The position numbers and the translations under genes are program-made. A stretch of DNA of 64,000 nucleotides, from contig JAUNBK010000010.1 of the NCBI GenBank assembly GCA_030527105.1, positions 1 to 64,000 on the forward strand, in the 5' to 3' direction. The notes below the pieces were generated by a model. The model ran no database searches and was not told the DNA's origin. It saw nothing but the letters and a program-made list of their open reading frames with translations. The stretch comes from Planctomycetia bacterium. Lineage in GTDB: Bacteria > Planctomycetota > Planctomycetia > Pirellulales > Thermoguttaceae. Shown piece by piece: positions 4,257 through 60,700 of the stretch (within the stretch, counting starts at the first letter, position 1; every line of letters starts with the position of its first letter).

Positions 4257-4361
4257 TATAATACTTCGCGTTAAAATTTCCCGTTCCGTCCGCCGTTGGA
4301 GCTTGCGTACCCCGGCTCGCAAAGCGTCGCGCAAACGGGAATTTTAAACGACATGAGTATA
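4257..4361 (+). repeat. 105-bp dispersed intergenic repeat, copy 1 (forward)
   Basis: Begins TATAATACTTCGCGTT and ends AACGACATGAGTATA. The internal inverted repeat is AAATTTCCCGTT / AACGGGAATTTT. Between the arms is the conserved core with CCGCCGTTGGAGCT and GGCTCGCAAAGCGTCGCG. It lies between the divergently oriented end of the PEP-CTERM transcription unit and the uxaC promoter. The stretch 4113-4446 holds only the promoter, this copy and the terminator. Confidence 0.9.
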
Positions 4362-8312: not shown

Positions 8313-8420
8313 TTATGGTACTTCGCGTTGGGATTTTTTGTTTTGTCCGCCATTGGAGTTCCACCCTCCCCGGCTCACAAAACGTCGCGAACCCCCGAAT
8401 TCTAACGAACGATGAGTAGA
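8313..8420 (+). repeat. 105-bp dispersed repeat, copy 2 (forward, diverged)
   Basis: Recognisable by ACTTCGCGTT, CCGCCATTGGAGTT, CGGCTCACAAAACGTCGCG and the terminal ACGATGAGTA. It fills most of the leader of the sigma54 activator gene: its right end touches the ribosome-binding site (AAGGA at about 8420-8424). The rest of 8080-8431 holds the divergent promoter and AT-rich DNA. Confidence 0.85.
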
Positions 8421-17431: not shown

Positions 17432-17537
17432 TATACTCATCGTCGTTTAAATTTCCCGTTTTGCGCGACGCTTTGCGAGCCGTGGTGCGTAGCTCCGACG
17501 GCGGACAGAACGGGAAATTTCAACGCGAAGTATTATA
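17432..17537 (-). repeat. 105-bp dispersed repeat, copy 3 (reverse)
   Basis: Near-consensus copy. It starts on the plus strand at TATACTCATCGTCGTTTAAA and ends AACGCGAAGTATTATA. It lies 23 bases upstream of the purD start. The following 17538-17781 is purine-rich and low-complexity (a G run near 17592-17601), with no gene. Confidence 0.92.
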
Positions 17538-19696: not shown

Positions 19697-19804
19697 TATT
19701 ACGCTCATCGTACTGTAGAAATCCGGTTTTTACGAAGTTTCGCTCTTCCGTGGTGCGTGGCTCCAGCAGCGGACAAAATCGGAAATTCTAACGCGATGTG
19801 TTAA
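19697..19804 (-). repeat. 105-bp dispersed repeat, copy 4 (reverse, diverged)
   Basis: The reverse-orientation pattern is kept: ACGCTCATCGTA, CCGTGGTGCGTGGCTCC, GCGGACAAAATCGGAAATT and final AACGCGATGTGTT. It lies between tRNA-Gly and tig. Confidence 0.8.
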
Positions 19805-28484: not shown

Positions 28485-28779
28485 TCGTTTCTCCTAATCT
28501 TTCTGTATTAAACTGAAGCTGTTGCCCGAGGCGCTTTCCTGTTTTTGACTTGCGTGTCGACGCTCATGAGATTTCTCTTTATGCAAACCCCCATGTGTCC
28601 CCGCGAGCAAAAAGGAAGCGCATCGGGCGTCAATATCCCTTATACAACAAAACTCACTATAATGATACACCGTTTTCCCCGATATTTCAATGATGACACC
28701 AAAAAATTTTGAGAAAAAATGGAAAATTTCTTGTGGAAGGACTGGAAATTTTTCTCATTTTGGTTTATGATATAGATAT
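28485..28779. other. Non-coding region upstream of the Nramp-like gene
   Basis: AT-rich, no credible gene. TATA-like boxes near 28657-28664 may include the promoter of the minus-strand transporter gene. Two repeat copies follow. Confidence 0.5.
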
Positions 28780-28885
28780 TATAATACTTTGCGTTGAAAG
28801 TCCCCGTTCCGTCCGCCGTCGGAGCTACGCACCACGGTTCGCAAGGCGTCGCGCAAAACGGGAATCTTAAACGACGATGAGTATA
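28780..28885 (+). repeat. 105-bp dispersed repeat, copy 5 (forward, first of tandem pair)
   Basis: Starts TATAATACTTTGCGTTGAAAG, ends ACGACGATGAGTATA. Its terminal TATA is shared with the next copy. Confidence 0.92.
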
Positions 28886-28990
28886 TAATACTTTGCGTTG
28901 AAAGTCCCGGTTTTGTTCCGCCGTTGGAGTTGCACACCACAGTTCACAATGCGTCGTGACAAACGGAAATTTTAAACCGCGATGAGTACA
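28884..28990 (+). repeat. 105-bp dispersed repeat, copy 6 (forward, second of tandem pair)
   Basis: Head-to-tail with copy 5. TATAATACTTTGCGTTGAAAG recurs exactly at its left end; the core is more diverged (GTTGGAGTTGCACACCAC). It ends CGATGAGTACA. Confidence 0.9.
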
Positions 28991-29135: not shown

Positions 29136-30845
29136 ATGGCGGTGAAATGGTACACCAAGGTGGCGGGGCAGGAGATTGGTCCGCTCACGTCGCAACAATT
29201 AAAGCAAATGGCGGATGAGAAGCGTATTATGCCCACGGACCCCGTGCGTCGCGAGGGTGACGCTCAGTGGAGTCAGGCATCTAGCGTGAAGGGGCTTTTT
29301 TCCGTGCAGCCTCCTTTGGGGACGCCCGTTGGAGAGCTTCCGCAAGGAAGACCCGTCGATTCTCTTCCCTTTTCGATAGATCCTGTCGCAAAGGCACCAA
29401 CCCCTTTTACTCCCGTGGCACCTCCTGTTGTGGCACCCGTAGCAGCTCCTATTGCGGCGGAAAAACCTGCTAAAAAGAAGAAGGTGGCGGCTCCGCTCGA
29501 TCCCCCACCCGTTGCGCCGCAAGCTCCCACACCTGCAGTCGATTTGGGATTCTCTTTCACGGATGCGCCCGCGCCATCCAAGGGGAGAAAGGGTGGCGCT
29601 CAAAAGTCCGACGATAAAAAGGATTCCAACGACGACGAGAAAAAAACTCTCTCGAAGCAGGAGATTCAGAGGAGGAACTTCTTCATCCTCTTGGGTGCCG
29701 CTGGCGGTGTGATTGTGCTTGCGCTACTCGTTTTCGTTATTATTTCCTTCACGGGAGGGGAATCTTCTGAGGAAGACCCCGCGCCTGACGCCGCCACCAC
29801 CACGGCGGAAGGAACCGAGAAAGCTGAGGGGGAGGAAACTTCGCCTGACGCCGCAGAGGAAAAACCTGCCGAGGGGGCGGAACAAACTCCAGATGCCGCT
29901 CCTGCTGAGGGTGATGAGGCGGAGGACACGGAGGAGGACACGGAGGAAGAAAAGGATCCGCTCGAAGGCTACGCGAAGTTAAGCGTCGGGGTGGGAATCC
30001 AAGATGTTTTTGTCAAAGTGAAAGATGTCCAACTCACGACCTTGGCGAATTTCACCAAAAAACCAAGTTCAAACAGGGGTCAATGCCTTTTTATCACGAT
30101 CAACGTCGAAAATCGCAGCGACGAAAAGGTAATTGAGTACCCCGCATGGGGGAGGAATCCGCGGAATATCGTTATGAAAGACAGCTTGGGCAACAGCCTC
30201 AAGCCCGTCACTTCGGTACGGCTTCAGGGACAAATGACGTCGCCCGAGCAGATTTCTCGTGGTGGTGTGGAAGATATCCTCGTTTTCCCGGCACCGCCGT
30301 TAAGGGCTGAGTACGTCCTCTTGGAGCTTCCTCCGGTGGATCAATCGGTCTCCAAAGGTTTCAAATTCATCATTCGAAAGGAAGATTATTCCCCTGAGTT
30401 GACGAAGAAAGAGGGCAAGAAGGCGACAGGCGACGAAAAAGCCGAGAGTGACGACGCCCAAACTGAAGAGGACGAGGAACTCACGGACAGCGGCATTGAG
30501 CAGGGTGATTTGAAGGTGCGACGCTCTTCCGACGAGCTTTCTGCGTCCATTGATGAGGTGGCGGCAGAGATCGGGGAGTCTCCGGGTGCCGAGGCGGAGG
30601 AGGGGGCGTTTGATGATGCTCCGCCGCCACCGCCAGCAAAGCCCATGACGCCTGAGGACGAAGAGCGCGCGGCAATCGAGGCGGAAATGCGTGCCGCTGG
30701 ATGGGCGGGGAGATCCGACTCCGTCGAGGACGAACCGGACATTCAATTGGACCTCAGCCCGGAGCTTCAAGAACAAATCCGCGTCCAACAAGAGCGCGAC
30801 GAACAAAAACGAAAGGAACAACTCAAAGGGCGCACGAAGAGGTAG
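29136..30845 (+). CDS. GYF_2-domain single-pass membrane protein
   Basis: Unrecognised full-length function. The 569 residues begin with a GYF_2 domain (1-55: KWYTKVAGQEIGPLTSQQL, a protein-interaction fold common in Planctomycetes). A Pro/Ala linker follows, then a charged patch and one transmembrane helix (~190-212, FFILLGAAGGVIVLALLVFV). An acidic Glu/Ala-rich stretch (~215-280) precedes a beta-rich domain (~290-410) that may be an extracytoplasmic sandwich. The C-terminus is Glu/Asp/Pro-rich. AAAGG lies eight bases before the ATG. The sugar-isomerase-like gene follows after 14 bases, so they form an operon. Confidence 0.8.
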   Translation: MAVKWYTKVAGQEIGPLTSQQLKQMADEKRIMPTDPVRREGDAQWSQASSVKGLFSVQPPLGTPVGELPQGRPVDSLPFSIDPVAKAPTPFTPVAPPVVAPVAAPIAAEKPAKKKKVAAPLDPPPVAPQAPTPAVDLGFSFTDAPAPSKGRKGGAQKSDDKKDSNDDEKKTLSKQEIQRRNFFILLGAAGGVIVLALLVFVIISFTGGESSEEDPAPDAATTTAEGTEKAEGEETSPDAAEEKPAEGAEQTPDAAPAEGDEAEDTEEDTEEEKDPLEGYAKLSVGVGIQDVFVKVKDVQLTTLANFTKKPSSNRGQCLFITINVENRSDEKVIEYPAWGRNPRNIVMKDSLGNSLKPVTSVRLQGQMTSPEQISRGGVEDILVFPAPPLRAEYVLLELPPVDQSVSKGFKFIIRKEDYSPELTKKEGKKATGDEKAESDDAQTEEDEELTDSGIEQGDLKVRRSSDELSASIDEVAAEIGESPGAEAEEGAFDDAPPPPPAKPMTPEDEERAAIEAEMRAAGWAGRSDSVEDEPDIQLDLSPELQEQIRVQQERDEQKRKEQLKGRTKR

Positions 30846-31746: not shown

Positions 31747-33801
31747 CTATTGCACCGACTGGTCGCCCACCGTGGGGACGACGAGAGGCGTTGTTGCCGT
31801 GCGAGGACGCTTGAGTTTGAAGAGACCGAAAACGTCTTCCTGCGAAAGTCCAACATTGCGCCGCTCTTTCGAGCCGGAGAGGATGGTGTCGAACAGGTCT
31901 CGTTTCTCTTGGAGGATGCGATCAATGCGCTCTTCAATCGTGTTGAGCATGAGAAAACGCGTAATCGTCACCGCACCTTTGACGCCAATCCGATGAGCGC
32001 GGTTGATCGCTTGATCTTCAATCGCCGGATTCCACCAACGATCGAAGAGGAAGACATAATTGCAAAATTGCAAGTTCAGTCCGACACTTCCCGCGCCGTA
32101 GCTCATGAGAAGGACGTGGTGATCGGGGGAGTTGCGGAACTTTTCGATCACTCCGTCGCGCAGCCGATGCGGGATTTTCCCGTGGTATTCGAGCGTACCG
32201 AATCTCTCGAGCGCGCTTTTGAGACGAAATATCGTGTCCGTCCACTGGCTGAAGACGATCGCTTTTTGACCGCTTGACGCGACTTCCTCCAAGTCGGCTT
32301 CGAGTCGCTGCAATTTCGGACTGTCGCCCGTGCAAGGGTCAAAATTGCAGATTTGTTTCAAACGCAACACCAACTCGAAAACGTGCTGAATCGTGATCGA
32401 CTCGCCCATCTCCGAGAGACGCAGGGCCCCCTGCTGCTCCGCCATGGAGTAGGTCTGCTGCTGCTCAGCCGACATGTACATTCCCGCGTCGCGATAAAGA
32501 CGAGGGGGCATATCTTTGAGCACCAAATCCTTCGTTCTCCTGAGGATATAATCACTCACGGCACGTCCCAACACGTTTGGTTTCATGTCGGAATTCAAAA
32601 ACCCAGGAGAAAGAAACTCGAAAATTCCAACTAAATCGTCCGAGGAGTTCTCGATCGGCGTCCCCGTCATTGCCCAGCTTCGAGTTCTCGAGATGCTTCT
32701 CGCAGCCGAGGCGGTAGCGCTTCTTTGATTTTTAATGCGCTGTGACTCATCCAAAACGACCAAATCGAAGTGTCTTCGGATCCCTTTTTTCGGGGCGTAG
32801 AAGTTTCGATCTCTGTGGAGCAGCTCATAATTCGCAATTTTGACCGGGATGTCGGCAAGTCCCCACTGCCATTCGCGACGGACTTGGTCCCCCTCAATGA
32901 CCACGACGGGGATTTCGGGTGCCCACACTTCAAACTCGCGCTTCCAATTCGTCACGAGCGGCTTGGGACAGACGAAAAGGACGTTTCGAATCTCGCCATT
33001 TCGCAAAAGGAGCCGAACCGTCGTGATCGCTTGCATGGTTTTTCCCAACCCCATTTCGTCCGCCAAAATGGCAGCGTCGCGAGAATATAAAAACGAAACG
33101 CCTTCCCACTGGTAGGGGAACGGTTCGAAAGGGAATACGAGATTGTTGTCCGAGATAAGCTGCTCAAGCGGTGGCTGAAGCAAATATCGCAAACGATCTT
33201 CGAGCTTGATGAGGTTTTTGGGCGGCGCGAGGCGCGTCATTGAATCTGGCGGCGTCTGGCTGAGTTCCTCCCCCACGCTCTCCGATGGGATTTCGACCTC
33301 CAATTCTCCATTCTCCTCCGCGTTCGACAGAAGATTCATCTCCTCCATCGACCCTTCCATCGACACACCGTCCGGCAACAATTCCGCGTCCGGCAGCTGG
33401 TCGAGAATATTTTCCGCGCGTTCTTGGAGAGGCGATTCGTCTGTATCGACATCACTCCCAGGCGCGCTCTCGTCCCACGGAGGAATGATATCTTCTTCGG
33501 AATATGGAGCCTCGCCTTTCGTTGCTTCGAGAGCGCTGTTTGAATCCTTCGAATCCGAAGTTTTGGCGGACTTTTTTCTGTTAGGCTTGCATAATTCGTC
33601 CGGATTCCCAAAAAAGAAGCTCTCAACGCTTATGGAGGGCGGCGAAATTTTCACCGTGAGGGCCTGCGGCGGACGATTCCCAAACGCTAGAGTGCGAAGC
33701 TCTATCTTCGGCGCCCTTTGCAGCGCCGGATTCCATCCAAGCATCAATTCCTCGACCCGAGGCTTCGGAGGAACGATCGTGAGTACCTGAATTTTATCCA
33801 T
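31747..33801 (-). CDS. SNF2-family DEAD/DEAH-box helicase
   Basis: Bacterial Swi2/Snf2 ATPase of 684 residues, probably a DNA translocase remodelling protein-DNA complexes. Residues 1-200 are an acidic, poorly conserved lead. Motif I is ADEMGLGKTMQAI (~247), motif II DESQRIKN, motif III MTGTPIEN, motif V SVGLNLQ and motif VI AINRAHRIG (~620). No SWIM zinc finger is seen. The start at 33801 abuts the end of a tandem repeat pair and has no recognisable ribosome site, so an internal start is possible. Confidence 0.92.
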   Translation of the reverse strand: MDKIQVLTIVPPKPRVEELMLGWNPALQRAPKIELRTLAFGNRPPQALTVKISPPSISVESFFFGNPDELCKPNRKKSAKTSDSKDSNSALEATKGEAPYSEEDIIPPWDESAPGSDVDTDESPLQERAENILDQLPDAELLPDGVSMEGSMEEMNLLSNAEENGELEVEIPSESVGEELSQTPPDSMTRLAPPKNLIKLEDRLRYLLQPPLEQLISDNNLVFPFEPFPYQWEGVSFLYSRDAAILADEMGLGKTMQAITTVRLLLRNGEIRNVLFVCPKPLVTNWKREFEVWAPEIPVVVIEGDQVRREWQWGLADIPVKIANYELLHRDRNFYAPKKGIRRHFDLVVLDESQRIKNQRSATASAARSISRTRSWAMTGTPIENSSDDLVGIFEFLSPGFLNSDMKPNVLGRAVSDYILRRTKDLVLKDMPPRLYRDAGMYMSAEQQQTYSMAEQQGALRLSEMGESITIQHVFELVLRLKQICNFDPCTGDSPKLQRLEADLEEVASSGQKAIVFSQWTDTIFRLKSALERFGTLEYHGKIPHRLRDGVIEKFRNSPDHHVLLMSYGAGSVGLNLQFCNYVFLFDRWWNPAIEDQAINRAHRIGVKGAVTITRFLMLNTIEERIDRILQEKRDLFDTILSGSKERRNVGLSQEDVFGLFKLKRPRTATTPLVVPTVGDQSVQ

Positions 33802-33802
33802 A

Positions 33803-33898
33803 AGCGATATCGTCGTACTTTAAAATTCCCGTTTTGCGAGCCGTGGTGCGCAGTTCCAACGGCGGACGGAATGGGGAATTTCAACGCGAAGTATTATA
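33803..33898 (-). repeat. 105-bp dispersed repeat, copy 7 (reverse, internally deleted)
   Basis: Reverse copy with TTTAAAATTCCCGTTTTGCG, CCGTGGTGCGCAGTTCC and AACGCGAAGTATTATA. About 14 bases of the core (around GCGACGCTTTGCG) are missing. It is part of a tandem pair. Confidence 0.9.
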
Positions 33899-34002
33899 CA
33901 CTCAGCGTGCTTTAAAATTCTCGTTTTGCGCAACGTTTTGCGAGCCGTGGTGCGCAGCTCCAACGGCGGACGGAATGGGGAATTTCAACGCGAAGTATTA
34001 TA
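33895..34002 (-). repeat. 105-bp dispersed repeat, copy 8 (reverse, tandem with copy 7)
   Basis: Full-length copy sharing the TATA junction with copy 7. It ends AACGCGAAGTATTATA next to the tRNA-Arg terminator. Confidence 0.92.
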
Positions 34003-35457: not shown

Positions 35458-35563
35458 TATAATACTTCTCATTGAAATTTCTGGTGCCGTCCGCCGTTGG
35501 AGCTACGCACCACGGCTCCCCAAACGTCGCGCAAAACGGGAATTTTAAACGACGATGAGTATA
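35458..35563 (+). repeat. 105-bp dispersed repeat, copy 9 (forward)
   Basis: Near-consensus: TATAATACTTCTCATTGAAA at the left end, CCGCCGTTGGAGCTACGCAC in the core, ACGACGATGAGTATA at the right end. It lies 45 bases beyond the 3' end of the Fe-ADH gene. Confidence 0.93.
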
Positions 35564-37085: not shown

Positions 37086-37190
37086 TGTAATACTTCGCGT
37101 TAGGAATCCCTTTTCGCCCGCCGTTAGAGCTGCGCACCACGGCTCGCAAAGCGTCGCATAAAACGGGAATTTTATAGGAGAACGAGTATA
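37086..37190 (+). repeat. 105-bp dispersed repeat, copy 10 (forward)
   Basis: TGTAATACTTCGCGTTAGGAA, then CCGCCGTTAGAGCTGCGCAC, ending GAACGAGTATA. It lies in the leader region of the HEAT/DUF1080 gene, about 70 bases before its start. Confidence 0.92.
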
Positions 37191-39603: not shown

Positions 39604-39707
39604 TTTATGAGACTTCTCGCTGGAAATTCAGATTCCGCCGTTGTAGCTTACGCACCACGGTTCCCGAAACTTCATGAAAACCGAAATTTTGAAGAAGGGC
39701 GAGTACA
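39604..39707 (+). repeat. 105-bp dispersed repeat, copy 11 (forward, diverged)
   Basis: A worn copy: ACTTCTCGCTGGAAATTC, CCGCCGTTGTAGCTTACGCA, CCACGGTTCCCGAAACTTC, ending GAGTACA. Two further GAGTATA-like ends follow (to 39738), suggesting nested debris. Confidence 0.75.
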
Positions 39708-49999: not shown

Positions 50000-50105
50000 T
50001 ATACCCGTTTTCCTTTAAAATTCTCGTTTTACTTAACGCTTTGCGAGCCGTGGTGCGTAGCTCCAACGGCGGACGGAACGGGAAATTTCAACGCGAAGTA
50101 ATATA
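50000..50105 (-). repeat. 105-bp dispersed repeat, copy 12 (reverse)
   Basis: Reverse copy: TTTAAAATTCTCGTTTTAC, GCCGTGGTGCGTAGCTCCAA, CGGCGGACGGAACGGGAAAT, ending AACGCGAAGTAATATA. It lies between murB and the TlpA-like gene, 42 bases upstream of the murB start. Confidence 0.92.
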
Positions 50106-51403: not shown

Positions 51404-52342
51404 ATGGAGAAAATAGCCAAAAATCTCACCGAACTCATTGGCGCAACGCCTTTGGTGAGAATCAACGCGCTCAACGAAGGCGAGGCGGAAGTCCTTGCGA
51501 AGGTCGAATTTTTCAATCCAGGAGGGAGTGTCAAAGATCGCGTCGGCGCAGAAATGATCGAAGCAGCAGAACGTGAGGGACTCTTGAAACCCGGAGGGCT
51601 TATTATTGAACCCACAAGCGGAAACACCGGGATTGGTCTCGCGTTGTGTGCCGCGATTAAAGGATATCGATTGATTCTCACGATGCCCGAGACGATGAGC
51701 GTGGAGCGTCGAAAACTTCTCCAAGCATATGGCGCGCAGGTCGTCCTCACGCCCGGGTCGGAGGGGATGAATGGTGCCATCAAAAAGGCAATTGAATTGA
51801 GAGATCAAAACCCCGGGGCATTTATTCCGCAGCAATTCGAAAACCCCGCAAATCCCGAGGCGCATAGGAAATCGACCGCGTTGGAGATTTGGCGCGACAC
51901 CGACGGACGCGTGGACGCCTTTGTCGCGGGCGTCGGAACCGGCGGAACGCTAATGGGCGTCGGCTCTGTGCTCAAAGAGAAAAATCCTGCGCTCAAATTG
52001 GTCGCCGTTGAACCAGACACAAGCCCCGTTTTGTCTGGAGGAACGGCGGGGGCGCATAAGATTCAAGGGATTGGCGCCGGGTTTGTTCCTTCGATCCTCG
52101 ATGTAGGAATTATCGACGAGATTCTCCTTGCGACTTCCGAAGATGCCGCACGAGTGGCACGTGACGCAGCTCGAAAAGAGGGACTCTTCATTGGAATCTC
52201 CTCGGGAGCCGCCTTGTGGGCAGGGTTGAAGCTCAGCCGTCGCGCAGAGTTCGCGGGGAAAAGGATTGTCGTCCTTCTCCCCGATGGCGGAGATCGATAC
52301 CTTTCAACGTGGCTATTCGATATTTATAATACTTCTCGTTGA
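51404..52342 (+). CDS. cysK: Cysteine synthase A (O-acetylserine sulfhydrylase)
   Basis: PLP enzyme making cysteine from O-acetylserine and sulfide. 312 residues. The PLP lysine lies in [11 protein letters not shown] (~43), substrate loop TSGNTGIG (~70), phosphate loop GTGGTLMG (~178) and SSGAA near 265. AGGAAG lies eight bases before ATG. The last six codons and the stop (from 52325) lie inside a 105-bp repeat: the family core ends at YLSTWLF, and DIYNTSR is repeat-encoded. Confidence 0.97.
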
Positions 52343-52430
52343 AATTTCCGGTGCCGTCCGCCGTTGGAGCTACGCACCACGGCTCGCAAAGCATCGCGTA
52401 AAACGGGAATTTTAAAGGAGAACGAGTATA
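52325..52430 (+). repeat. 105-bp dispersed repeat, copy 13 (forward), overlapping cysK
   Basis: TATAATACTTCTCGTTGAAA at the left end, CCGCCGTTGGAGCTACGCAC in the core, GAACGAGTATA at the right end. It overlaps the 3' end of cysK by 18 bases and supplies its TGA stop (52340-52342). Confidence 0.94.
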
Positions 52431-56903: not shown

Positions 56904-56916
56904 TCTATCTTATACT

Positions 56917-56995
56917 CGTCGTACGTTCTCGTACTTTCAAATTCAGTTTTCACGGCGCGTCTCCCAGATCGAGAGGCACCACACGCCGCACGCCT
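56917..56995 (-). repeat. Possible decayed copy of the 105-bp repeat
   Basis: TATACTCGTCGTACG at the left end matches the reverse-copy terminus; CAAATTCAGTTTTC may be the inner arm. The remainder does not match, so this is weak. Confidence 0.3.
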
Positions 56996-57104: not shown

Positions 57105-57780
57105 TTATGTTACAAAAGGTGGTAGAGGTTTTTTATACTCAATCGCATTTATAATTCCGTTTTTGCGCCGAGAATTTGAAATTTCCCGGTGATTAACGTA
57201 CGCAGGTCGGGCAAATACCGTTTCGGCGTCGAAAAAATCCGGAAAATATTGATTATATAGTACTTTTTTCTTGAAAAATCGCCATAATCGCACGAGCGGA
57301 TTAAGGGTTGGTGAGTATGCGGGCAAAAAATGAAGGCGAATGTTGGTTTTGATTAAGAATTCGCGCAAAAGTTTGGAATGATAATATCTTGCATTGTCTA
57401 CGAATACATGGATGGTTGCTTTTGAATCGTCGCAGGAAATGTAACGCAAGTTGCCAGCGTGTCGATGTTTATGACACCATTAATATTGATATGTTGATGT
57501 GAACAATTCGATTTTAGTTCCCGCTCTTCGCCCCGACGAATCCAGCTGTATGTTTTTATCAAATTTCGTCCACGTTTAGGCACAAATTTTCGTTCAGCCA
57601 AGTCGACAACCCCTCTTCTGTATCGAAGTCAGACGCGCTACGCGACCACGATACAGCCTTTGTTTTATGGCATCAACGCCACCTGATTCCCACGTTTGAA
57701 AATGGCTGCGGACGGTTTTTTTCATCCATCATCAGAACCTCCGCCACGTCGCCGACAGACCAGCCACACCCGAGCAGAAA
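57105..57780 (-). pseudogene. IS630-family transposase remnant
   Basis: Read on the minus strand, pieces of an IS630 transposase follow in order but in different frames. An HTH region near 57780-57640 (LLGCGWSVGDVAEVL, then HFQTWESGGVDAIKQRLYRG), LSTWLNENL near 57600, GVINIDTLATCVTFPATIQ near 57460, and the DDE C-terminus 57449-57105 (VDNARYYHSKLLREFL, HFLPAYSPTLNP, LWRFFKKKVLYN). At least three frameshifts and an internal deletion are present. The usual catalytic Glu after NP (NPIERLW) is replaced (NPLVRLW). It ends against the giant RHS frame. No terminal inverted repeats were delimited. Confidence 0.88.
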
Positions 57781-57784
57781 AACG

Positions 57785-60700
57785 GATTGGTATGTTGGAA
57801 TTATCGTCGATCCGAATAACGTTGCGGGAAGTTACAAAGTTTATTCAGACAGCATCACCATCAACCCCGCGATGACTTTCCTGGACAGCAGCGGAACACA
57901 AACCGATCGTGCGTTGAATTTTGGTTCTGTTGTGGATGATGGAAAGAAAATCGACGAAACGTCTAACAATTCGACTCGTGAGCATACGATTACCTTAAGC
58001 AACCGTTCCCAGTACGACATGTACATCTGGCAGAATGGGATTACCTTGAGTAACGGGCAGCATTTCCGAGTGAAGTCTGTTGTCGATTCATCGCAAAGTT
58101 CGCCGGTCAGTCTTGCGTCAGGACCTCTTAAGTTGGCGAAGAATAATGGAAATACGGTAACGCTGACAGTTCTTTTCGATCCTTCGGGAGAGCTTGGCGT
58201 TTTATCCGATCAAATAACGGTTGAAACGGGGTTCACCTACTCCAACGGTATCACATACAATTACGGCAACTTGCATTTCAATCTGTCGGGAACCGCCACG
58301 CCGTTGGCGCAGCTTTCGGTCAACACCGCGTCGGGAGATGCGACCAACCCGCAATTGGAATTTACCGAAACCGCTTTTGATGCATCCAAAACATCGACAC
58401 GGACGTTTACGCTGACCAATCCCGGTAGCGGGGCGATGACGATTAACGCCAGTGGAATCTCGGTTCCGGCGAACTCCGGTTTTAGCGTTACATCGGTTGT
58501 GAGTTCCACGCAGGGGAATATAACGACCGCGTTGAAATCCTCTGCCAAAACCATCGCGACCTACGGAGCGGAAACCTGGACGGTCACGGTCGTATTTTAT
58601 CCAGAGGAATCCAAGTATTATCAAGACGCGCTGACGATTGCGTATATTGACAAGAACGTTGCAAATTCGACGACCAAAACGAAGCAAGTGGCGCTTTTGG
58701 GATACGGAAAAACGGCGGGGAATATCCAATTCGCGGATTCAGCGATCCAATCCACTCAACGCATTTCTTTTGGAAACGTTCATGCGGACGGTACGGGGAA
58801 GGAATCCGAAGTCCGAGAGATTCAATTTTCAAATCCGGGCGAAATCCCATTGGTCGTGGAGAAAAACGGCATTTCTTTGGTAACAGGGACGCAGTATAAA
58901 ATACAGTCGATAACAAGTTCGACGTTTGGAACGGTCGATTTATCGCTCGGTGCCGCGACGATAAAAGAGAATGGTGAGGAAGTTTGGACGATCAAGTTGG
59001 TGTTCGATCCATCTTCTTCGGGAACGTTGACGGACACGTTAAACATTCGGACGAACAGCGCTTCCAATCCGACAACCTCGTTTGCATTGACGGGAACCGG
59101 ACTGAATCAGGCAGAATTACGGATTCAATCTGACGACGCACTTGCGGTTTCGCCAGTCGTTTTTTCGGACACGCTTGCGGATGGCACTGGCGGAAAAACC
59201 AATCTCAAAGAGTTCGTTCTGACCAACCCGGGCACCCAAACGCTGAGGGTGAACGCCAACGGGATCTCCATGGTAACTGGCGCGGCTTTCAAGGTGAAAT
59301 CCGTCGTCTCTTCCACGCAAGGGGACATTACCAACAGTCTGAAATCGTCGAGTAAAACGATTGCCGCGAAAGGTGCCGAAACCTGGACGGTCACGGTGGA
59401 GTTCGATCCCGCGACGACCGGCAGTTATTCCGACACGCTGAAATTTTCGACCAACGATCCGGTCTCTGCGCTGCGCACGTTTACGCTTCAGGGTACCGCC
59501 GTTCTGCCGACGATAGAACTTGTAGGAGTCTCCGCTCCCATGAACGTTTCGGCACGTGACGCATTCACGATAACATGGAACGATTCTTATTCGGGTGGAA
59601 ATGCGGATATTTCTCTGTTTTACGACACAGACACAAACGTTTCCAACGGAATGACGGAAATCAAGACCGGGATTCACGAAGATGGCGTCTCCAATCGTTA
59701 TGTGTGGATGGTGCCCGACGATTTGATTGGCGAAACGATCTATCTGTATGCCAAAATCGAAGACGGGAATTATTCCGTTGATTCCTATTCTGTCGGAACG
59801 CTCACCGTTGGTAAGGCAGGGGAATATCGACTTCTCTCTGCGCCTGTCACCACGGAGGAAAACTACACGCTGGAGTTTGAATTCAACGGAACGACATGGA
59901 GCGGTCAATACCTGCTACAGGAAGGTTCCAACACGCTCTCCTATTCTGTTCCGATAAACAGCAACGAGTTCAAGACGTTTGCGTTTGACGTTACCCGAGT
60001 TTCCTCTTTGATGACCAGCGAACGGTCTGAGTACGACGATTTGGGACGATTGACTTCGGTCGTGGACACTTCCGGCACCGTGACGCGATGCGAATACGAC
60101 ATTCTCAACCAGTTGACTAAAATCGTTTACGATTCCGGCGAAACGGTAGAGTTTACGTACAATGCGATCGGTAACGTGACATCGATGAAAGATGATTCCG
60201 GCTGGCAATTTTATCGTTACGACGACCTGCAGCGGCTGATCAGCGTGACGTTTTCGGAGGATGAAAATCAGGATGCTTCCGACAAGACGATTGCGTACGA
60301 GTACAATCTTGCTGACGAACTAATGAAAATCACGTATCCGTCCGGCAAAACCGTTTCGTACACCTACGACACCGCAGGAAGGGTTTCAACGGTTAGAGAT
60401 TCTTCGGGAACCACGACTTACGCCTATAACGCGACGACCGGGTTGATTGCTTCCATTACCCGACCGAACGGGACACGCACGAAATACACGTTCGACGACA
60501 ACTTCCTTCTGACGACGATTCGGCACGAAAAAACGTCGAATTCCTCGCTGATCGAGCAGATTTCCTACGTGAGTGATGCGGCAGGACGAACGACGCAGGC
60601 AACGTTCCAGACCGCGACCGGAACCCGTGCGGAAGGGTACACTTACAACGAATTCGGGCAACTGGCAAAAGTTGTCTATTCGGAAGACGATGGCACAATC

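Follow-up and report, generated by a model that had tools for sequence, protein, structure and literature searches.

Head-to-tail copies of a putative IS630-type MITE share a TA dinucleotide in a Planctomycetia genome

Results

Two copies of a short repeat lie in tandem between divergent genes

The window, that is the whole 64,000-nucleotide stretch analyzed here, is contig C36 of genome G000 (4.1 Mb, 210 contigs). At 28780-28990 on the plus strand, between two divergent genes, it carries two head-to-tail copies of a short repeat. This arrangement, first proposed by a sequence-only reading, was borne out by the reading of the junction and by an HMM of the repeat. The HMM recognizes 13 copies in the window, including two tandem pairs, which are listed here together with an IS630-family remnant.

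4257..4359, plus strand: single copy (HMM 94.5 bits)
8314..8418, plus strand: decayed single copy (HMM 64.6 bits)
17433..17537, minus strand: single copy, source of the 109-base query (HMM 111.8 bits)
19704..19803, minus strand: decayed single copy (HMM 64.3 bits)
28780..28885, plus strand: upstream (A) copy of the first dimer, TA at each end included (HMM 102.1 bits)
28884..28885, plus strand: TA common to both copies of the first dimer (same geometry in 19 sampled pairs)
28884..28990, plus strand: downstream (B) copy of the first dimer, its right-hand TA reading CA (HMM 80.8 bits)
33810..33898, minus strand: downstream (B) copy of the second dimer, with 12 internal model positions missing and a decayed right end (HMM 81.4 bits)
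33897..33898, minus strand: TA common to both copies of the second dimer (junction reading)
33897..34002, minus strand: upstream (A) copy of the second dimer (HMM 106.3 bits)
35458..35562, plus strand: single copy (HMM 108.7 bits)
37088..37189, plus strand: single copy (HMM 89.1 bits)
39606..39705, plus strand: decayed single copy (HMM 62.8 bits)
50001..50105, minus strand: single copy (HMM 104.8 bits)
52325..52429, plus strand: single copy (HMM 117.1 bits)
57133..57788, minus strand: IS630-family remnant, with a DDE_3 match at 57237-57434, a MITE-like right end at about 57135-57172 and an unrecognized left part

The first junction reads GAG-TA-TA-TAATAC. The two copies had been claimed to share a whole TATA; what they share is a TA of 2 bp, since the last TATA of copy A (28882-28885) and the first TATA of copy B (28884-28887) are offset. 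Likewise, the same arrangement had been announced in the opposite orientation further along the window. Two tandem copies are indeed found there, at about 33810-34002 on the minus strand, again with a shared TA and not a shared TATA (GAGTG-TA-TAATAC on that strand). The pair at 33.8-34.0 kb consists of close relatives. In the first dimer, a comparison of rare variants places B as the top match of A, but A only fourth for B, and the sister relation of the two 28.8-kb copies is not secure.

The two genes flanking the first dimer are also side by side in the stretches from G002, G004, G005, and G007, and no element recognized by the HMM lies between the divergent pair in any of these four. We aligned the intergenic regions of G002, G004, and G007 with the window minus the dimer, leaving out G005 because its intergenic region is much longer. 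This orthologous comparison showed that the site is empty in these three genomes of the same genus. The sequences outside the dimer show no duplicated flanks, which the earlier reading had expected from an ordinary duplication. The insertion point directly follows a TATGAT (window 28766-28771) that is common to G002, G004, and G007, so that at least one repeat locus stands just downstream of a motif common to related genomes. This motif is possibly a promoter -10 element, in which case the transcript leader of the gene at 29136 would carry both copies.

The protein encoded next to the first dimer has five relatives in the genome collection, one in a Planctomycetia MAG (76% identity) and the others in an Aeoliella strain and three Thermoguttaceae or Thermogutta MAGs (51-55%). 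Beside the dimer, two weak matches at 28685-28749 suggested a snoRNA-type Rfam identity, which was rejected as they fall far below gathering. For the second dimer, seven stretches upstream of its neighboring gene in relatives contain no tRNA and give no clear synteny. One of them (L202), which in G005 precedes the relative of the window gene at 31747-33801, shows at about 260-390 of the stretch an apparent short TATACTC...GTATA element with a different interior and a weak HMM match (E 0.038).

The repeat is present in hundreds of copies with inverted ends and TA at its borders

When up to 3 mismatches are allowed, a core 23-mer of the repeat occurs 508 times in the 4.1-Mb genome, 254 on each strand, and its reversed control 0 times. 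We then scanned a sample of 1,203,338 bp of G000 with the HMM. The 373 raw hits correspond to 304 copies, 200 of them full, once weaker overlapping hits are dropped, chiefly those on the opposite strand of the same near-palindromic copy. Only 52 of these 304 copies lie mostly within ORFs of at least 200 aa; such ORFs make up 83% of the 1.2-Mb sample. The element accounts for a large repeat set in the annotation of this genome. Four contigs of G000 (C81, C129, C158, and C180) start within or beside element copies, from which we conclude that the repeat probably breaks the assembly at some contig ends. Searches of plasmids and of phages gave no match. A literature search limited to titles and the starts of abstracts did not bring this planctomycete family to notice, which does not imply that it is unpublished.

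The unit is about 105 bp long, with a body running from TAATAC to GAGTA. Its consensus begins with TATAATACTTCGCG and ends, counting the next base, with GAGTATA. Imperfect inverted arms are visible in the consensus, in its fold and in the aligned ends, that is, the element has terminal inverted repeats. Judging from its length, it is presumably non-coding. In a first sample of 131 full copies, TATA is present at the left end in 109 and at the right end in 98; among the 101 single full copies of this sample, 85 have a T at position -1 and 93 an A as second base of the right-hand TA. In a larger sample with 154 single full copies, 126 carry TA as their right-hand dinucleotide, and the preferred target is approximately TTT-TA-AAA. 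Being short, dispersed and present in 304 copies in 1.2 Mb, the repeat has the general features of a MITE.

Other short-repeat systems (REP/RAYT, an IS200/IS605-type palindrome, or a structured RNA) could be brought to mind by the consensus, which folds as a single strand into one long imperfect hairpin, and by one Y1_Tnp match in G000. However, the recognized copies nearest to this match are about 2.9 kb and 5.5 kb away, and we found no Y1 transposase gene flanked by the repeat in G000. The folding of the four dimer copies of the window is also unexceptional compared to shuffled sequences (z -0.27 to -1.69), and no Rfam family reaches its gathering score on the repeat, two tRNAs being the only window matches at that level. 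As the ends are inverted repeats with, mostly, a TA on both sides, an origin from one of these systems is highly improbable.

Joined flanks reveal some empty counterparts within the genome

We joined the flanks of 134 near-full copies, counting TA once, and found that 45 match elsewhere across the joint. Many of these matches are trivial, one of the two flanks being a tandem copy in its own right. Others are more informative: in the case of L116:16031, the joined sequence reconstitutes, without any gap, the right arm of another copy, and for L112:8168 it matches L117 with the TA intact. The joined flanks of L112:8168 also match L137, there with small gaps and the TA not kept; the TA is likewise not kept in the match of L135:8769 to L109. 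Taken with the TATA ends of most full copies and the TA in the tandem junctions, this indicates a duplication of the TA target by the MITE, although some of the proposed empty sites do not keep the TA. Together with the TA beside most copies and with the IS630 remnants described below, whose ends are similar, these counterparts sustain the earlier proposal of a TA-type target choice.

The same genome contains decayed IS630-family copies with matching ends

The PF13358 (DDE_3) domain has 16 matches in G000, all of them partial or interrupted and three at or near contig ends (L146, L148, and L152). No intact transposase was found among these 16. The ORFs of L154 contain winged-helix and DDE_3 domains, and L150 is a near-complete IS copy of about 1.02 kb. 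A MITE-like right end is present downstream of 11 of the 15 printed DDE_3 loci. It is absent from L156, L157, and L161, and at L159 it is split by a MITE, which is inserted in the right end of the IS630 copy at the TA of TTTTAAATGCG (TTT-TA-AATGCG). Elsewhere, MITEs stand at the right ends of IS copies with a 2-bp TA junction (L154) or a 0-bp junction (L146 and L147).

We compared the first 28 bases of MITE and IS ends within G000. The similarity was reached by 0 of 500 shuffles in 14 of the 18 comparisons, and by 1, 2, 16, and 18 of 500 in the remaining four. Comparisons with or within G005 gave mixed results. An IS630 element with matching ends is therefore present in the same genome as the repeat. 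The MITE does not appear to be a plain internal deletion of the IS, as no convincing match to the MITE core was found in the IS copies. Near the IS630 remnant of the window, at 56904-56950, lies an end-like sequence, TATACTCGTCGTACG, possibly the decayed end of another element.

Copies occur in related genomes, with a core alike in G000 and G005

Among seven other genomes of the genus, the core 23-mer (up to 3 mismatches) has 24 matches in G005, 6 in G004 and 0-2 in each of the other five. Two genomes of other genera gave one match (G027) and none (G026, with one hit of the reversed control). DDE_3 follows a similar distribution, with 7 matches in G004, 6 in G005 and none found in G001, G002, G003, G006, and G007; G004 and G005 are thus both the relatives with most element matches and the sole DDE_3-positive ones of the seven. 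In G007, a single weak match to the element and two to its core (up to 3 mismatches) occur without any DDE_3 match. The 109-base query matches 6 of 60 genomes, with several matches in G000, G004, and G005 and a single short, weak one each in G007, G030, and G054. The six matches of G004 to this query are on four contigs of only 3.1-6.2 kb and may reflect misbinning. Across 396 genomes of the order, the core 23-mer with up to 2 mismatches is found in 22, including 4 of the genus; the reversed control also hits several genomes. Outside the genus there are 1 or 2 hits per genome, with 1-2 mismatches.

The core of a MITE is usually its less constrained part. Between the consensus sequences of G000 and G005, core positions 34-61 are identical at 27 of 28 positions, compared to 18 of 35 in the left arm and 29 of 45 in the right arm; as the G005 copies were found through a pattern inside the core, which favors conserved cores, this contrast is partly built in. 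Of the 24 matched places in G005, 17 were fetched; with the divergent L087, L091, and L095 excluded beforehand, 14 copies went into the G005 consensus. We also observed in the G005 loci L078-L105 a second type of arm around the same 28-nt core.

Tandem junctions carry TA at a fixed spacing

In G000, 28 pairs of adjacent copies are arranged head to tail, and the junction motif indicates a shared TA in 20 of them. In the 1.2-Mb sample, the bodies of 19 neighboring same-strand pairs are exactly 2 bp apart, although uniform placement predicts 0.04 pairs at one spacing. The spacer is TA in 19 of 19, which supports the suggestion that one element inserts into the end of another. A gap of 0 bp is found in 3 same-strand and 3 opposite-strand pairs.

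The dimers could also come from ordinary tandem duplication, by slippage or unequal recombination between ends, with the TA or TATA as microhomology only. The earlier reading had named replication slippage as an alternative, and it probably occurs too: two of the three same-strand 0-bp pairs belong to an array (G000:C102:60939-61244) of three near-identical tandem copies with a period of 101, which share TATA and are 0.99-1.00 identical. This array is probably a slippage product. Slippage should, however, make use of the 4-bp TATA homology and leave TATA between near-identical units, as in C102, and not the 2-bp TA that is seen in 19 same-strand pairs as opposed to 3 at 0 bp. The C68 pair has a TATA junction, yet its partners are only 0.71 alike. 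The type of junction, TA or TATA, may serve to tell insertion from slippage by sequence alone.

We next compared these pairs to a target-preference model with independent sites, which is a rough guide and overpredicts the internal site. At the left end of a resident copy, it predicts 9.6 insertions in the same orientation and 4.0 inverted; at the other sites, it predicts 1.1 at the right end and 3.1 inverted at the second TA. The three inverted 0-bp pairs agree with the latter value. By contrast, no inverted pair at a 2-bp gap was found in the 1.2-Mb sample where the model gives 4.0, and for the internal site 140 are predicted against 4 recognized pairs (gap -13 or -14). The model is not quantitative.

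Partners are often, though not always, close relatives

Of the 20 TA-shared pairs, 19 show a difference between partners in distance to the consensus, and in 15 of these it is the upstream (A) copy that lies nearer to it (sign test p 0.019; Wilcoxon 0.023). Upstream copies are also nearer to the consensus than 160 single full copies (p 0.027), whereas downstream copies do not differ from them (p 0.78). This agrees with a newer copy having inserted at the left end of a resident one.

The likeness of partners in the 15 full pairs is 0.907, compared to 0.858 for shuffled partners (permutation p 1e-4). Seven of the 15 are reciprocal, each member ranking within the five nearest of the other out of 204 (205 copies), which indicates that some pairs are probably sister copies, and 8 of 15 fall within the top 5% of all pairs for shared rare variants. 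Neither the similarity nor the reciprocal pairs are predicted by simple independent insertion. Since close kinship links the partners in about half of the full pairs, the arrival of unrelated copies is only part of the story. In the C185, C91, and C122 pairs, on the other hand, the partners are not close relatives. The tandem pairs thus seem to have two origins, some as independent insertions and others as sister-like pairs. Non-adjacent neighbors within 0.3-3 kb show no excess kinship (mean distance 0.160 vs 0.159; 101 pairs) and are no more alike than copies on other contigs, so that general local hopping is unsupported.

Tandem duplication would account for the close partners in about half of the full pairs, for the C102 array and for the lack of kinship beyond adjacent copies. 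It does not account for the partners that are not closely related, nor for the preference for TA, and we consider it unlikely. Sister-like pairs keep the TA junction, instead of the TATA of the C102 array, and this surplus of sister-like pairs with a transposition-type junction is the unusual feature of the family.

Such pairs would also be expected if the transposase linked two sister copies, right end to left end, through a TA spacer, making (element)2 dimers as in IS30. Exactly TA stands between the bodies of sister-like pairs; insertion gives the same product, and re-insertion beside a sister copy is equally compatible with the data. In the portions of the two reports that bear on this point, IS30 is described as forming tandem dimers by joining the inverted repeats of two copies (PMC9333248), while ISY100, of the IS630 family, is described as cut-and-paste with TA duplication (PMC2170065). 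End-joining appears quite unlikely. We give similarly little credit to a joint reading in which an IS630-type transposase joins sister ends through TA, paired ends are the preferred substrates and the 28-nt apical core is functional. If it were true, the arms would track the resident transposase and the core would serve a separate function.

Discussion

The repeat is best read as a new MITE family of the IS630 kind. We consider it highly likely that it is a non-autonomous IS630/Tc1-mariner-type MITE, presumably mobilized in trans and inserting at TA beside resident copies. In this scheme, a MITE of about 105 bp flanked by duplicated TA would be moved by an IS630-family transposase, which would recognize its imperfect inverted ends and prefer targets like TTT-TA-AAA. 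This preference is satisfied by TTT-TA-TAATAC, the left end of a resident copy, so a second copy could enter its TA in the same orientation. The product would be TA-[copy A]-TA-[copy B]-TA, in which the copies have just a TA in common, copy A probably being the later arrival. For the sister-like pairs, a copy may re-insert beside its own sister after replication.

With hundreds of copies, some of them in tandem, this genome documents the natural multiplication of TA-targeting mini-transposons. Its surplus of sister-like pairs would allow local re-insertion or end-joining by an IS630 system to be put to the test.

Several known elements can be compared with this family. Correia elements use TA targets. 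The planctomycete element resembles them as a short dispersed element between inverted repeats, a likeness of description and not of sequence. According to the lines that PMC3049150 devotes to them, the Correia elements of Neisseria are short, dispersed and composite, with 26-bp inverted repeats and internal sequences of up to 156 bp, whereas the planctomycete element has one conserved core. ISY100, an IS630/Tc1-mariner element, is reported in the relevant part of PMC2170065 to insert into TA with TA duplication. ISY100 encodes an active transposase, for which the 105-bp element has no room, and the partner IS copies found here are decayed.

The head-to-tail dimers themselves recall IS30. IS30 belongs to a different transposase family and its dimers have a 2-bp spacer. 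The likeness lies in two head-to-tail copies with joined inverted repeats, as outlined in a section of PMC9333248, whereas the planctomycete dimers consist of a MITE whose ends are of IS630 type, and plain insertion may be enough to explain them. Finally, RUP, the repeat unit of pneumococcus, is described in the corresponding passage of PMC3049150 as a simple unit of about 107 bp, with a high copy number and ends like those of an IS630 element of its host, and with no mention of dimers. It resembles the planctomycete repeat in size, copy number and IS630-like ends, compared by description and not by sequence, and differs in belonging to another bacterium, where that passage counts 110 RUP in one strain, against the 508 core matches found here.
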